Origin: Nitrososphaerota archaeon
Lineage (GTDB): Archaea > Thermoproteota > Nitrososphaeria > Conexivisphaerales > UBA164
Assembly: GCA_029786595.1 (NCBI GenBank)
Contig: JAFLXO010000011.1
Coordinates: 1-32,573 of the forward strand
Reading direction: 5' to 3'
DNA length: 32,573 bases
The position numbers were made by a program, and so were the translations under genes. Within the stretch, counting starts at the first letter, position 1. Each line of letters opens with the position of its first letter. Positions 20,677 through 27,660 of the stretch are shown piece by piece. The notes under the pieces are model-generated. The model saw nothing but the letters and a program-made list of their open reading frames with translations, ran no database searches and was not told where the DNA came from.

Positions 20677-22350
20677 TTATGATGACACTACATTCATTAG
20701 CATCCTGATCAGATCTATGTTGGCTACTATGCCCACGAGCTGTCCTGTTAGATTTATAACAAAGATATGATCCTCATTTCTTTCTATCATAGTTTGTATT
20801 ACCTCCTCGAGTGCGGCATCCTCTGTAAAGGTCAGCCCTTTCTTTATAGCTAGGGTATATAGCGGTCTATCGTAGGCAGAAGTGGGCAAGGCCGAAAGGT
20901 CCTCTAAAGTGGTATAGCCAAAGAATAGCCCGCCTTCGGCGACCAACGGAATTACCCTTATAGATTTCTCCTCCAAGAGCTTTCGCGTATCCCTAACTGA
21001 ACTGCTGCTTTCAACAGCCAGCGGGTTACGCGTCATAACATCTTTCACCCGCCTGCTGAGCATTATATGCGGATCCATTGAGATAGCCCTTCTATAGAAC
21101 CTCTCCAGCGCCAGACCTTCGTGTTCCCTCTTCGAAGTGCCTTGTACAGGATAAATCGAAAAGTTGTTGGAAACAAAGTAGGCTATTATGGAGGCAAGCA
21201 GCACCGGTATGATAGCATTTGAACCAACTATCTCTGCAACGAATGCTATCGGCGCAAGGACCACTTTATTAACTCCAGAGGCTGCCGCTCCCATTCCTAG
21301 GAGCGCAAAAAAAGGTACATAGATTGGGGAGAAGATAAGGCCAAAGGCGGCCCCAATGAGCATCCCCATTTCTATGGCCGGCAAAAAGGTTCCACCGGTG
21401 CCGCCAAAGTTAAGCGTGGTAATGACCGCGAATGACTTAAACAGGAGGATAATTATTATGGAAGTTAACGCCAGGCCGCCCGCAATGGTGATGGAGATCA
21501 GGTTCAAGCCCGGCCCTATCGATAGCGGTTCTAAGTAACCTAATGTCCCAAGGATAAGGCCGCCGATCAGCACCAGTAAAGGGAGGCTGGCTTTAGAAAC
21601 CAAAAGGGTGGAGAGCCTGCCAAACAGCTGATAAAGCTTGACAAAGGCTATGCTAAGCCCACCAACAATAAAGCCAAACAGGATGGTCAGGAGGATGAGC
21701 CCAACGTTTAATTGCGGAAGAGTAAAAGCTACGTTGATTATCGATGGTGTATTCAGAAAGAATGAAACTAAATACGCGGCGGCTGAGGCTATCGCTGCTG
21801 CAATGAATGGCTCCTTCTCAAGGTCTCGCTTATAGGGTAGCTCTAGAGCCAGCAGGAAGCCGCTCAGAGGCGTCTTGAATACAGCTGAAAAACCTGCTGC
21901 CAAACCGGTCAGCAGCATGACCTGATAGGTCATGTTTATGGTGAATTTCCTCTTGAACCAGGAGCTTATGCCGGCACCCATCAGCACTGATGCCCCTTCC
22001 GGGCCAACCGGTGCCCCGAACATAAAAGCGCCTAAGGAAGCGAGCGAATAAACAAGGGCATCCCTTAATCTTAGCTTTTCAGGAGATAAATGGTAATACT
22101 CGAGAAACGTTTCGAACGAATCTTCCGCCTTTTTCCTTAGAAAGAGTCTTACTAGCAGGCTCGAAATCAGAAGCGCCATGAGTGCAAATATCAAGAAAAG
22201 CTGTGGTTCCCTCGTCAGCAGAGGGGAAAACCCATTCCATACGGCCAGTGATACCCTGTAGGCTATCGATACGGCGCCCCCGATTATAGCGCCGATGATG
22301 AGGGTGAATACAATGGGTTTTATCGACCCTGGATTTAGAACCCACTTCAA
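20677..22350 (-). CDS. CLC-type chloride channel/antiporter with CBS domain pair
   Basis: A 557-residue membrane protein. Residues 1-410 have the CLC fold: APVGPEGASVLMGAG (113-127) with Glu118 at the gating position (family GREGP), and GGTGGTFLPAIEMG (about 316-329) matching the GxFxP anion-site motif. Residues about 435-555 hold two CBS domains (VKDVMTRNPLAVESS and the final FVINLTGQLVGIVANIDLI), which bind adenine nucleotides and tune transport. Keeping the gating glutamate suggests Cl-/H+ exchange, relevant to acid resistance. The start is ATG at 22350, 50 nt from the divergent MFS gene. Confidence 0.93.
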   Translation of the reverse strand: MKWVLNPGSIKPIVFTLIIGAIIGGAVSIAYRVSLAVWNGFSPLLTREPQLFLIFALMALLISSLLVRLFLRKKAEDSFETFLEYYHLSPEKLRLRDALVYSLASLGAFMFGAPVGPEGASVLMGAGISSWFKRKFTINMTYQVMLLTGLAAGFSAVFKTPLSGFLLALELPYKRDLEKEPFIAAAIASAAAYLVSFFLNTPSIINVAFTLPQLNVGLILLTILFGFIVGGLSIAFVKLYQLFGRLSTLLVSKASLPLLVLIGGLILGTLGYLEPLSIGPGLNLISITIAGGLALTSIIIILLFKSFAVITTLNFGGTGGTFLPAIEMGMLIGAAFGLIFSPIYVPFFALLGMGAAASGVNKVVLAPIAFVAEIVGSNAIIPVLLASIIAYFVSNNFSIYPVQGTSKREHEGLALERFYRRAISMDPHIMLSRRVKDVMTRNPLAVESSSSVRDTRKLLEEKSIRVIPLVAEGGLFFGYTTLEDLSALPTSAYDRPLYTLAIKKGLTFTEDAALEEVIQTMIERNEDHIFVINLTGQLVGIVANIDLIRMLMNVVSS

Positions 22351-22400: not shown

Positions 22401-23684
22401 TTGGCAAGAGAGCTTCCGGGATGGTTCTACTTTCTTATACCTTTCTATGCTATTCAAGAGATAATATATACTTTCACTCCAATATACATATTGCACATCG
22501 GGGGCAATGTCGTTGATGTAGGCATCGCCGTGGCTTTATACAGCATCGCATATATGCCCGCCTCAATCATTGGAGGCAAACTTGCCGATACTTTAGGGAA
22601 GAGAAGGTCCCTCGCGCTGCTCGGGCTAGCTTTTCAGGCCGTTAGTATAGTGGGCATGTCATTGCTAAGGTCCATTTATTCCATAGAAGGATTCTTTACG
22701 GTGTATTCATTCGGCTATTCCATTACAATACCGATTGTCGGACTATTGGTGATGGAAACGCTGCCAAAGGAGAAGTGGGGCGAAGGCAACTCGATTTCAT
22801 TTAGGTTTATGATCATCGGCTATATATTGGGGCTTGTCCCCGCCATAGCTTTCCTTCTATATCTTCCATTCTACGATTTCTTCATCATACCCTTCCTTTT
22901 CCTGATAATAGGTTTTCTTTTCGCAGTCAGGCTTATAAAGGAACCACTGGTTACCTTCGAAAGACGTACCCAGATTTCCAATTTCAGCGGTTTTATAGAG
23001 AGGCTTTCAAAATATCCAGTGCTCTTTTTGCGCCTTCCAAAGTTGCTGGACTTTAAGGCCATATACAGGTCCAGTAAAAATAGCATGACGAGAGACCTGC
23101 CCGTCATCATGCTGAGCGCAGGTCTGTTCTTCTTTGCATCAAACCTCCTTTTCACTTCTTACACTCCATTTCTTTATTCGAACAATATATCATTCGGCCT
23201 AATAATGCTCTCAAGCCTCTATTTGACCATCATCAACTATATAGGCACAGTTAAGCCAATCAAGGCCCCAGCAGAGAAGGGCGATGTAAAATTCATTGTC
23301 AACATGATCATGGTCAGGGCGCTCGGAGCCCTTTCCGCTGCCTTGCTCGCTGCCTACATATTTGGATTTAATACGCTGCTTTATACGTTTGTCATCTACA
23401 GCGTGCTCGGCATGGCTTATACGCCCATATTTATAGGGATGAACTCCCTCCTCTATTATAGGCTGCCAAGTGGGGGCAGGGGTGGCATGTTGGGCGTTTA
23501 CAGCGCCATCAGCAGCCTGAGCCTCTTCTTCGGGTCATACTTATCGGGCTTGATCTCATTCTATTTGGGTTATTTCATGACATACTTCCTAGCCGCAATA
23601 TTCTTTTTTATCGCCGCCATATCGATCGAATGGCATTTTAAGTCTCATACGCCCGATGATAAGGAAATATCCTTATCCATTTAA
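22401..23684 (+). CDS. MFS transporter
   Basis: A 427-residue transporter with about 12 helices. Residues 58-69 (GGKLADTLGKRR) match MFS motif A, between helices 2 and 3. A long central basic loop (about 175-240) separates the halves. The start is TTG at 22401, with a TTTTAAAG element about 20 nt upstream; no ATG is close. Substrate unknown. It is divergent from the CLC gene with a 50-bp shared promoter region, and it is not related in detail to the other MFS protein in the window (11062-12204). Confidence 0.88.
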   Translation: MARELPGWFYFLIPFYAIQEIIYTFTPIYILHIGGNVVDVGIAVALYSIAYMPASIIGGKLADTLGKRRSLALLGLAFQAVSIVGMSLLRSIYSIEGFFTVYSFGYSITIPIVGLLVMETLPKEKWGEGNSISFRFMIIGYILGLVPAIAFLLYLPFYDFFIIPFLFLIIGFLFAVRLIKEPLVTFERRTQISNFSGFIERLSKYPVLFLRLPKLLDFKAIYRSSKNSMTRDLPVIMLSAGLFFFASNLLFTSYTPFLYSNNISFGLIMLSSLYLTIINYIGTVKPIKAPAEKGDVKFIVNMIMVRALGALSAALLAAYIFGFNTLLYTFVIYSVLGMAYTPIFIGMNSLLYYRLPSGGRGGMLGVYSAISSLSLFFGSYLSGLISFYLGYFMTYFLAAIFFFIAAISIEWHFKSHTPDDKEISLSI

Positions 23685-23732: not shown

Positions 23733-24512
23733 TCAGTATAGCGTCTTGATATAATCAATGAGTTGGCCGGTTAGGTCGAGTTTTCTGACATCCCACGCTA
23801 TCGTGTTTGTAGAAGTAACCTCGCCAAAGCTCTTTAACTCAGATGGATCGTCAAGAAAATAGGTGGCATAAAAGCGCACATTGTTGGCCTTTTTGAGATA
23901 CACTGAAGCTACCGGCTTCAGCTCACTTGAACGGCTTACAAGGTTATCAATAATGAGTACGTTGCCGTCTTCAACTCCAACCTGATGTTCGATGACCTCA
24001 ACTGCTATGTTCAGGTCCGGGTTGAAGGTTATAACCTTGGCCCTATAATTGTCCCTTTTTAATTGTTCTATCAAGAGTGGAAATGTTGAAAGGCTAACCG
24101 ATTCAGCTGCAGTTATCCCCAACCTCTTTATAGGCGTCAGGTCCACAAACACTAATCTCTGTACCTTAAACTGATTTATTAAATCCATGTATTGAGTAAA
24201 TCCTTCCTCTGAGTCGGGTAGACCTCCCTTCTGATAAGCCATCGGGAGAAGGATAAGCACGCTTGTAGAATTGAGCCTCGAAAGTGTAAGGCATAACTTG
24301 AACATATCCCTGTCATATGGGGGGACAATACTCCATATGACGATAGGCCTGTTTCCAGATGAGCCGCCTATATTGCTAGTTAACCCCGAGTCCGAACTGA
24401 ACTTGACAGCGTTAGACTCAAGCTTAAGGGAAGCCGATATGCTATTAGATATTTCTTCGATTTTCTCATCATAATAGATAACAAATTCGCCGGAACTCCC
24501 CATGATGCCCAT
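23733..24512 (-). CDS. Catalytically degraded PRPP synthetase paralogue
   Basis: The 259 residues follow the two-domain plan of ribose-phosphate pyrophosphokinase: IVIWSIVPPYDRDMFKLCLTL (57-77), SVLILLPMAYQKGG (84-97) aligned with the PYxxYxRQD loop, RLVFVDLTP (119-127) where the catalytic His of VDLH is missing, VITFNPDLNIA (160-170), VLIIDNLVSRSSEL (185-198) in place of the PRPP-binding DDxxxTGGT loop, and EVTSTNTIAWD (231-241). The ATP and PRPP loops are lost, so it is probably not an active synthetase, but it could join or regulate an active one, as PRPP synthetase-associated proteins do. A perfect palindrome lies one base before the ATG. A later Met (residue 4) could also start it. Confidence 0.65.
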   Translation of the reverse strand: MGIMGSSGEFVIYYDEKIEEISNSISASLKLESNAVKFSSDSGLTSNIGGSSGNRPIVIWSIVPPYDRDMFKLCLTLSRLNSTSVLILLPMAYQKGGLPDSEEGFTQYMDLINQFKVQRLVFVDLTPIKRLGITAAESVSLSTFPLLIEQLKRDNYRAKVITFNPDLNIAVEVIEHQVGVEDGNVLIIDNLVSRSSELKPVASVYLKKANNVRFYATYFLDDPSELKSFGEVTSTNTIAWDVRKLDLTGQLIDYIKTLY

Positions 24513-24717: not shown

Positions 24718-25746
24718 TCAGCCATTCTCGGTTAGGATTTTATCCACCATCTTGATATGCGTTGCCTTTTCGGCATTAGGTAGGAACGAGGCTTCAATAG
24801 AATTCTTAGCCAGCCTCACTACTTCGTCCTTCCTCAGCCGCAGGCCATCTATAACAGCGGCATAATTTTCAGCCAGATAGCCCTTGAAGTATGCCGGATC
24901 GTCTGAATTGACCGTCGCAACTATTCCCAAATCAAGCATCTTCCTTATTGGGACGTCCTCTATTCTTTTAAAATAGTTTACACCAACCGACGAAATTGGA
25001 CAGGCGGTGACCGGGATCTTTTCCTTTGCCACCCTTTCTACAAGCTTTTGATCCTCAAACATATGATAACCGTGATCTATCCTTGAAATCTTAAGAAGGT
25101 CTAATGCTTCCCATATATATTCTGCAGGTGCCTCCTCACCAGCGTGCGCTACTGCAAGAAACCCCGAGTTTCTAGCATCTTCAAATACTGTTGTAAACTT
25201 GTGAGGGGGGTTACCAAGCTCCTTCGAATCCATCCCAACCGCCTTAATCCAAGGTTTATACTTCTTGGCCTCCTGAAGTACATCCATAGCGGATTCGGCG
25301 CTCTGGTCTCTTAGAAAGCACATGATTAGATAGGACGATATCCCGTACTTGCTTTTTGCATCCTCCAGGGCCCTATGAATCCCGTAGACCACAGTCTTGA
25401 ATGAAATGCCTCTAGATAGGTGTGCTTGTGGATCGAAAAAAATTTCGGCGTGAACCAGCCCTTGCGCAGCAACCCTCCTGATATAAGCCATGGTCAGATC
25501 GTAGAAATCGGTTTCAGTGACCAGAGATTTCATTGCGTTATAGTATATGTTAAGGAAATCCTGAAGGTCACTAAAATTGTATGCCCTTCTCGCTTCTTCT
25601 GTTGATTTATAGGGCAGCTTAACACGGTTCTTCTGAGCCAGCTCAAACATAAGCTCAGGTTCAAGCGTTCCTTCTATATGCAGGTGCAACTCAGCCTTGG
25701 GCAGAAGCCTCGCAAGCTCCTTTAAATCGGTGGATTTTGGACCCAT
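24718..25746 (-). CDS. Adenine deaminase (adenosine-deaminase-like, Aah1 type)
   Basis: A 342-residue amidohydrolase. Metal and catalytic residues are His21-x-His23 (ELHLHIEG), His201-Glu204 (VAHAGEE), His225 (RIDHGYHMFED) and Asp282-Asp283 (NSDDPAYFKGY). The blocks FSDLQDFLNIYYNAM, AEIFFDPQAHLSRG and GMDSKELGNPPHKF match the fungal and bacterial adenine deaminase subgroup better than adenosine deaminases proper. It converts adenine to hypoxanthine in the cytoplasm. A TATA box centred 27 nt upstream indicates a leaderless message. It is divergent from a second type of adenine deaminase. Confidence 0.88.
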   Translation of the reverse strand: MGPKSTDLKELARLLPKAELHLHIEGTLEPELMFELAQKNRVKLPYKSTEEARRAYNFSDLQDFLNIYYNAMKSLVTETDFYDLTMAYIRRVAAQGLVHAEIFFDPQAHLSRGISFKTVVYGIHRALEDAKSKYGISSYLIMCFLRDQSAESAMDVLQEAKKYKPWIKAVGMDSKELGNPPHKFTTVFEDARNSGFLAVAHAGEEAPAEYIWEALDLLKISRIDHGYHMFEDQKLVERVAKEKIPVTACPISSVGVNYFKRIEDVPIRKMLDLGIVATVNSDDPAYFKGYLAENYAAVIDGLRLRKDEVVRLAKNSIEASFLPNAEKATHIKMVDKILTENG

Positions 25747-25899: not shown

Positions 25900-27660
25900 A
25901 TGGAACTTGAGGATCTGATTGATGCAGCGCTGGGAAACAAGAAGGCCGATATAATAATCAAAAACGGCAAATTGATCAACGTATTCACAAAAGAGGTCTA
26001 CAAGTCTGACATTTCGATTTACAAGGATAAGGTAGTTTCTACAGGTGACTCATCAAAATATAAGGGCCCGAATACAAGGGAAATCAACGGTGAAGGCCTA
26101 TTTCTATCCCCAGGATTCATAGATGGCCATCTGCATTTTGAAGTGAGCAAGCTATCCTTTACCATGTTATCTAAACTTCTGGTACCTCATGGCACAACAT
26201 CAATAGTTAGTGGAGTAGATGAAACATACAGCGTATTAGGTGAGGACGGCGTCTACAGTACCATAAGTGAATCTGCTGCATCACCTCTTAGGCTGTTCTT
26301 TGCCATACCCTCCAAGTTACCCTACACAATTCCTTCGTCAACCCTTAATCATACCGTTAACTACGAGGTAGTAAGGAGACAGCTACCCATGGAACATACA
26401 TATGGCCTCTGGGAGACTATTACAGAATTCATAACAAATAAGGATGTGGACCAGTTAAAGGCGCTCTCAATGGCTAAAAGGTTGCATAAACACGCGTTCG
26501 GTTGTCTCCCGCTGGCCAGAAACAATATCCTCAATGCTGCGACCGCAGCGGGCGTTCGCCTGGACCATGAAAGTTATAGCCCCGATGAGATGAGAGAAAA
26601 GGTAAGGAATGGGCTATACGTGATGATAAGGGAGTCAACTGTAACGCACTTTCTGGATAAGAATATCAAGATAATAACTGAGTACGGGATTCCATCAAGC
26701 AGGGTCGGATTCTGCACAGATGATGTGATGAGTTATGACGTGCTTAGAAGGGGGCATCTGGATAACGTCATAAGGATGGCCATCATGGCTGGCGTGCCTC
26801 CGATAGAGGCATATCAGATGGCTACTATCAATACGGCGGCAATGTACATGGTAGACGATGAAATCGGCATTATAGCGCCTGGAAGGTACGCAGACATAGT
26901 GCTGCTAACCGATATGGAAAAGGTGGCCATCAAGGGGGTGATATCTCACGGTTCAATTGTCACATGGGATGGAAGATTCCTAACTGAGGTTGTCCCCCCT
27001 AAAAGGGAAGCGTGGATGCTTAATACATTTAATGTCAAAAGGATGATCGAACCTTCTTTTATCAAAGTTCCAGCGCCTGCTGAACGGCAGGCTATGGCTT
27101 TGGCAATAAAGGTCAGTGATGAAAACCCGTTCAAGAGGCCTAGTGTAAGGCTGCTTACAAAGGTTTCTGATGGCGAGGCTATGGCAGACCCCTCACAGGA
27201 CCTTTTATATGTAACCATAGTAGAGAGACACAAAGGCACTGGCCTAGTTGCCTCGGCGTTTGTTACAGGGTTCGGGTTAAAAGAGGGGGCTATGGCCTCT
27301 TCAACAGCCCCCGATGACAACAACATAGTGGCTGTTGGAACTAACAAGGCCGATATTGCACTTGCAGTGAATAGTCTAATAGACATGAAGGGAGGGCAGG
27401 TTGTGACGCGCGGAGGGTCAATAGAGATGAAGCTACCTCTACCAATAGGCGGTATAATAGCAGATATGGAACCTGCGGAAATGGCAAAGCAAGAGTTAGC
27501 AGTAGATGAACTGTTAAGGCGAATGGGATCAGGGCTCACATCGCCTATGAGCACCATGATCTTTCTGCCGGTGACCGCCATACCTGACTACGCTATGACT
27601 GATAAGGGGCTCGTAGATTGTGTGGGACTTAAAATAGTGCCTCCGATAGAGAAGGCCTAG
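25900..27660 (+). CDS. AdeC-type adenine deaminase or related amidohydrolase
   Basis: A 586-residue member of the AdeC family. DIIIKNGKLINVFT (18-30) begins the composite domain; SPGFIDGHLHFEVS (70-83) holds His77 and His79; LVPHGTTSIV (94-103) follows; FCTDDV (about 275) gives the catalytic Asp; the C-terminal domain has GLVASAFVTGFGLKEGAMASS, GGSIEMKLPLPIGGI and PVTAIPDYAMTDKGLVD, typical of AdeC. The usual DPHEIANV motif after PHGTT is replaced by GVDETYSV (105-112), and ESS by EVS, so metal binding or substrate may differ. The ATG at 25900 has no clear ribosome site. Divergent from another adenine deaminase 153 bp away. Confidence 0.85.
   Translation: MELEDLIDAALGNKKADIIIKNGKLINVFTKEVYKSDISIYKDKVVSTGDSSKYKGPNTREINGEGLFLSPGFIDGHLHFEVSKLSFTMLSKLLVPHGTTSIVSGVDETYSVLGEDGVYSTISESAASPLRLFFAIPSKLPYTIPSSTLNHTVNYEVVRRQLPMEHTYGLWETITEFITNKDVDQLKALSMAKRLHKHAFGCLPLARNNILNAATAAGVRLDHESYSPDEMREKVRNGLYVMIRESTVTHFLDKNIKIITEYGIPSSRVGFCTDDVMSYDVLRRGHLDNVIRMAIMAGVPPIEAYQMATINTAAMYMVDDEIGIIAPGRYADIVLLTDMEKVAIKGVISHGSIVTWDGRFLTEVVPPKREAWMLNTFNVKRMIEPSFIKVPAPAERQAMALAIKVSDENPFKRPSVRLLTKVSDGEAMADPSQDLLYVTIVERHKGTGLVASAFVTGFGLKEGAMASSTAPDDNNIVAVGTNKADIALAVNSLIDMKGGQVVTRGGSIEMKLPLPIGGIIADMEPAEMAKQELAVDELLRRMGSGLTSPMSTMIFLPVTAIPDYAMTDKGLVDCVGLKIVPPIEKA

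Follow-up and report, generated by a model that had tools for sequence, protein, structure and literature searches.

We show that, in three of four families of its order, a vertically inherited archaeal PRPP synthetase (PRPPS) gene has been stripped of its catalytic apparatus. One of the descendants, encoding 259 aa, lies at 23733..24512 on the minus strand of the window, the whole stretch of 32,573 nucleotides analysed here (Nitrososphaerota archaeon, Conexivisphaerales; GCA_029786595.1, contig JAFLXO010000011.1, positions 1 to 32,573). Its open frame, orthologues, dN/dS and PRPPS fold indicate that its product is almost certainly a fold-retaining pseudoenzyme under selection.

Fold and family membership

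The window protein is a PRPP synthetase homologue, as the initial annotation had claimed; the predicted fold, the TIGR01251 match and direct protein search agree on this. TIGR01251 (ribose-phosphate diphosphokinase) was its sole NCBIfam match, a weak one of 15.3 bits that missed the curated-family cut-off of 113, and the related degenerate genes of families f4 and f3 scored better against this model (2.8e-8 and 1.1e-6, respectively). The Pfam scan of the window protein gave no match, and the sequence search of the PDB gave no usable match. Direct protein search from the window protein reached intact PRPPS with E-values down to 5.8e-8. The AlphaFold2 model, computed from an alignment of 11 relatives, had a mean pLDDT of 82 and a pTM of 0.81 and displayed the two-domain phosphoribosyltransferase-type PRPPS fold. 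In Foldseek, the best 50 PDB matches listed for this model were PRPPS throughout (E from 6e-11), with TM-scores by query length of 0.72–0.80. Prediction of the protein alone thus returned the PRPPS fold and not an unrelated one. The model of an f3 protein likewise had the PRPPS fold; its top match was the Sulfolobus enzyme 4twb, and human PAP41 (2ji4) was among the matches listed.

Loss of the active-site loops

Conserved positions were defined from an alignment of 34 intact PRPPS of the class, in which 26 positions reached 90% conservation or more. Of these 26, four were retained in the window protein (Tyr93, Asp124, Asp189, and Ser193) and 22 were lost. The initial annotation had described the RQD loop, the catalytic His of VDLH and the PRPP loop as changed. 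Residues 92-97, AYQKGG (24222..24239, minus strand), align with the ATP-binding ARQD/ARQH loop of intact PRPPS, which reads YQKGG in the window protein, with R replaced by K, Q by G and the remainder 3 residues shorter. At the VDxH site, residues 122-127, FVDLTP (24132..24149, minus strand), kept Asp124 and lost the His. The literal VDLH is absent and the change is from VDIH to VDLT; among all degenerate proteins compared, the Asp was present in every one and the His in none. The ribose-5-phosphate loop DDxxSTGG became DNLVSRSS, within residues 188-196, IDNLVSRSS (23925..23951, minus strand), where the first Asp was kept, in agreement with the described change of the PRPP loop.

Further losses went beyond those already described. 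The FPDGE loop became SSDSG. The pyrophosphate loop PDxG became FNPD at residues 162-166, TFNPD (24015..24029, minus strand), and the new TFN was invariant across family f1, the window's own family. At residues 179-182 (23967..23978, minus strand), a deletion removed the flexible loop of about 30 residues that carries the catalytic K-x-R, as seen from an alignment gap common to all f1 and f4 proteins, so the reference residues K192 and R194 have no counterpart. The human PRPS1 residues D171, K194, R196, and T225 are discussed in PMC12238573. Residues 234-240, STNTIAW (23793..23813, minus strand), are the counterpart of S/ATDTVP, and T235, N236, and I238 were invariant in f1. The alignment also showed a shortened form of the hairpin by which one PRPPS subunit extends into the next.

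As the catalytic loops were lost, established enzymology makes PRPP formation by the window protein very unlikely. A PRPP synthetase working with an unusual active site would account for the retained fold and the two retained catalytic-site aspartates, but such an enzyme would have to act without the Lys/Arg catalytic loop, the His, the ribose-5-phosphate loop, and RQD, and an intact enzyme is encoded elsewhere. We therefore regard continued synthetase activity as extremely improbable.

Selection and distribution

The Nei-Gojobori dN/dS of the window gene against its G002 relative was 0.086 (dN 0.017, dS 0.195). The two other measurable degenerate pairs gave 0.119 and 0.081, the remaining pairs being saturated at silent sites, and three intact PRPPS-A pairs gave 0.039–0.066 for comparison. 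Open-frame relatives were present in 11 of 11 genomes of f1 and in G013 of family f4, and the frame was intact in all 16 genomes examined except for one split at a contig edge (G017). The collection scan found an identical protein (100%) in the MAG DX2.bin21. The MAGs with relatives carry the labels Thaumarchaeota, Nitrososphaeria, Nitrososphaerales, and Conexivisphaerales and come from independent samples. Plasmids gave no match. A 250-genome sample of the phylum contained no relative of the degenerate family outside the order; the one weak match, a 301-aa frame in G335, resembles an ordinary PRPPS in length.

The loss of most conserved motifs and the long tree branches could also be explained by a decaying pseudogene or by an assembly or ORF artefact. 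The intact frame across genomes, the dN/dS of about 0.1, the confident fold prediction and the occurrence in independent samples all oppose this, and both readings, largely refuted by the selection result, were discarded on dN/dS and distribution as scarcely credible. The window protein combines disruptive catalytic changes with selection, as is characteristic of a PRPS pseudoenzyme. The retained role that had been claimed from degeneration in an open frame is borne out by this purifying selection.

Ancestral locus and origin

The order of genes at the ancestral locus across the class is intact PRPPS, THUMP methyltransferase (TIGR01177-like), and RNase Z, as observed in families f2, f6, and f7; in f2, intact PRPPS precedes the THUMP methyltransferase at L065-L067 and L137. 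The degenerate relative of f4 (L064 4899-5675) occupies exactly this place, followed by the methyltransferase and RNase Z genes. In f3, the degenerate gene was found at the ancestral locus in all four genomes: it directly precedes the THUMP methyltransferase in G015 (L136 4062-4838), has the same gene order with a longer gap in G012 and G019, and is split over contig ends in G017. Besides L064 and L136, degenerate genes at this locus lie at L133 5352-6101, L134 3574-4323, and L051 1399-1971. The degenerate genes of f3 and f4 possibly carry a PRPP synthetase annotation in public records. In f1, including the window, the gene has moved away from the ancestral locus.

In the tree, the f1 proteins grouped with the f4 protein (support 100/99), and a single clade of all degenerate proteins had a support of only 70/52. 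Topology tests rejected neither placement of the degenerate proteins, p-AU being 0.31 for a grouping with B and 0.39 for one with A. As the tree by itself leaves these proteins unplaced, the origin was assigned by locus position. Because the f4 and f3 genes hold the position that intact PRPPS has in other families of the class, the degenerate gene is read as the descendant of the ancestral PRPPS. The remnants of the loops differed between the f3 and the f1/f4 proteins. The simplest history is that the ancestor of the order already had a second PRPPS and the ancestral gene then lost catalysis in f1, f3, and f4. This history is not that of a plain additional paralogue: it is the degenerate gene that descends from the original occupant of the locus, the other copy being the working enzyme.

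In f4 and G015, where the two adjoining genes have more genes of RNA-processing type nearby, the protein might be suspected of serving tRNA processing together with the THUMP methyltransferase and RNase Z. However, this adjacency is common to intact PRPPS throughout the class and so is inherited, and f1 retained the protein without it; the f1 genomes gave no homologue of the ancestral-locus THUMP methyltransferase at E 1e-5. A role in tRNA processing is accordingly improbable.

The intact second PRPPS

The separate intact PRPPS forms clade A, which is supported by 99/99 together with a divergent copy, A2, and is encoded elsewhere in the genomes of families f1 to f4. All f2, f3, and f4 genomes had an intact PRPPS (A or A2), as did G001, G002, G004-G007, and G010. 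In the window's own assembly, clade A PRPPS is represented by its first 61 residues at a contig end, and the near-identical G001 holds it complete (L027:1486-2403). The further divergent intact copy A2 was observed in two f1 genomes, at G005:C2:239063-239401 (L034) and G006:C3:2098-2436 (L043), and G006 carries both A and A2. With these predicted intact clade A/A2 copies, the lineage of the pseudoenzyme has the active PRPPS that is expected beside a PRPS pseudoenzyme.

In three incomplete MAGs of genus g2 (G003, G008, and G009), the pseudoenzyme was present and intact PRPPS was not found. The usual neighbour gene of intact PRPPS was also absent from the G003 and G009 assemblies and had no close match in G008; because this match is missing too, the missing PRPPS is probably a result of assembly incompleteness. 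The completeness of G003 is 92%.

Gene neighbourhood

Upstream, and separated from the pseudoenzyme gene by 205 bases, an adenosine deaminase gene (24718-25746) likewise lies on the minus strand; an adenine deaminase gene (25900-27660, plus strand) diverges from the adenosine deaminase gene. These two form a purine-salvage pair retained in the three genomes of the window's genus. Also beside the pseudoenzyme gene are a ClC-type chloride channel homologue, recognised by eye (20677-22350, minus strand), and an MFS transporter gene (Pfam MFS_1; 22401-23684, plus strand), whose order is conserved in the genus.

Genera g2-g4 of f1 have the gene tightly flanked by those of a ROK-family sugar kinase and a small membrane protein, with 4-bp overlaps in L056. 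The small membrane protein (75-100 aa) is encoded directly upstream of the pseudoenzyme gene, at 7763-8008 in L056, where the overlap is 4 bases, and in the same place in L057-L063; it showed a weak holin-family resemblance below the cut-off. In f3 and f4, tRNA-processing genes flank the pseudoenzyme gene. Operon partners were rejected as evidence on function, since the ROK kinase is near-universal in the order and lies close to the gene in some f1 genera only, being encoded elsewhere in the window's genus. The neighbours varied between the f1 genera, f3, and f4 and shared no common pathway, while the protein persisted.

Possible roles of the pseudoenzyme

Since the neighbours change between lineages while the protein persists, a partner encoded elsewhere is favoured, and the obvious one is PRPPS-A. 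The initial annotation had suggested an inhibitory partner or a nucleotide sensor, and a regulatory partner is plausible. We tentatively propose that the pseudoenzyme acts as a partner or regulator of intact PRPPS-A, a role to which we give somewhat less than an even chance. The window protein would join the oligomer of PRPPS-A as a non-catalytic subunit, and its remodelled pocket would bind a nucleotide or pentose phosphate. The ligand-bound pseudoenzyme would then set the activity or assembly of PRPPS-A, like the animal PRPSAP proteins, and would act on PRPP supply without catalysis. The PRPSAP precedent and the direct conversion with a backup enzyme known from eukaryotes (PMC12238573, PMC13252144) argue for a regulator. 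Several observations argue against a partner. Eukaryotic PRPS pseudoenzymes are thought to bind their class of origin; here the partner would be clade A, and the activity of the parent (B) is gone. The large deletions include part of the hairpin to the next subunit, unlike in PRPSAPs, and three MAGs (G003, G008, and G009) hold the pseudoenzyme where intact PRPPS was not found.

A purely structural partner would have no need of conserved former active-site loops, and these loops were more conserved than the rest. In f1, 14 of the 36 former active-site loop columns were conserved versus 35 of the 199 others (Fisher p 0.007), a test that is indicative only, as the loop set was defined after the alignment was seen. 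The contrast weakened when f4 was added (p 0.11). From these sequence patterns, the former active-site pocket may serve ligand binding or a new use.

Such a pocket might instead belong to a stand-alone protein, a phosphosugar or nucleotide sensor or adaptor or an enzyme of a new reaction, that works independently of PRPPS. The residues that replaced the old catalytic ones, Q94, T126-P127, T162-F163-N164, and N190, did not vary among the genera of f1, whose overall identity is about 35%, and the two old-site acidic residues D124 and D189 were retained. The tight coupling to the small membrane protein and the ROK-family sugar kinase in g2-g4 and the adenosine deaminase gene preceding the window gene would also fit. 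On the other hand, a common new activity is unlikely because the new invariant residues differ in f3 and match f4 only partly, and the neighbours were not conserved between the f1 genera, f3, and f4, the ROK kinase lying elsewhere in the window's genus. An independent function of this kind is a serious possibility, at roughly one chance in three.

Relation to known PRPPS systems

The window protein and the archaeal Class III PRPPS (TIGR01251; 1u9y, 3mbi, 4twb) have the same two-domain fold, domain order, and derivation as judged by locus and sequence, but in the window protein the active site is lost and the chain is 40-60 residues shorter. With the opisthokont PRPSAP1/2 (PAP39/PAP41) it has in common the PRPPS fold, replaced catalytic residues, and an active PRPPS in the genome. 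PRPSAP1/2 derive from the bacterial-type Class I; both of their dimer interfaces are preserved, and many of them show extended loops. In contrast, the window protein, known here from its sequence and predicted fold, comes from an archaeal gene and carries deletions. PRPSAPs descend from Class I PRPS duplication in eukaryotes, and the host and the ancestral PRPPS locus here are archaeal, so the window protein is not a PRPSAP by descent; by analogy, its working may be PRPSAP-like. In eukaryotes, 37 PRPS pseudoenzymification events have been described, including cases in which a gene was converted directly in the presence of a backup enzyme (PMC13252144), and this direct-conversion-with-backup route is common to those pseudoenzymes and the window protein. 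Pcc2, a paralogue subunit of the archaeal KEOPS complex (PMC9889334), is a precedent from an unrelated family for a paralogue serving as an extra subunit of the parent complex.

A preprint of June 2026 (PMC13252144), which surveyed more than 35,000 PRPS sequences from all domains, 4,686 of them archaeal, found Archaea with Classes III and XII only and reported no archaeal or bacterial pseudoenzyme. It concluded that prokaryotes made new active classes and eukaryotes made pseudoenzymes. No prokaryotic PRPS pseudoenzyme was found in the literature searched, most subscription journals lying outside it; within that literature, the suggestion of the initial annotation that an archaeal counterpart would be new holds, the host being archaeal.

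For genome annotation this is a warning, since the working enzyme of these archaea is not the one encoded at the conserved PRPPS locus. The archaeal family, invisible to Pfam and under the NCBIfam cut-off, offers an independent and compact test of dead-enzyme retention, and an order-wide archaeal PRPS pseudoenzyme contradicts the division between prokaryotes and eukaryotes drawn in PMC13252144. It is conceivable, although we would put it below evens, that this is the first prokaryotic PRPPS pseudoenzyme lineage, in which the order relies on its second PRPPS and the ancestral gene now acts as a non-catalytic regulator of PRPP synthesis. If this is true, pseudoenzyme control of PRPS would not be a eukaryotic invention.
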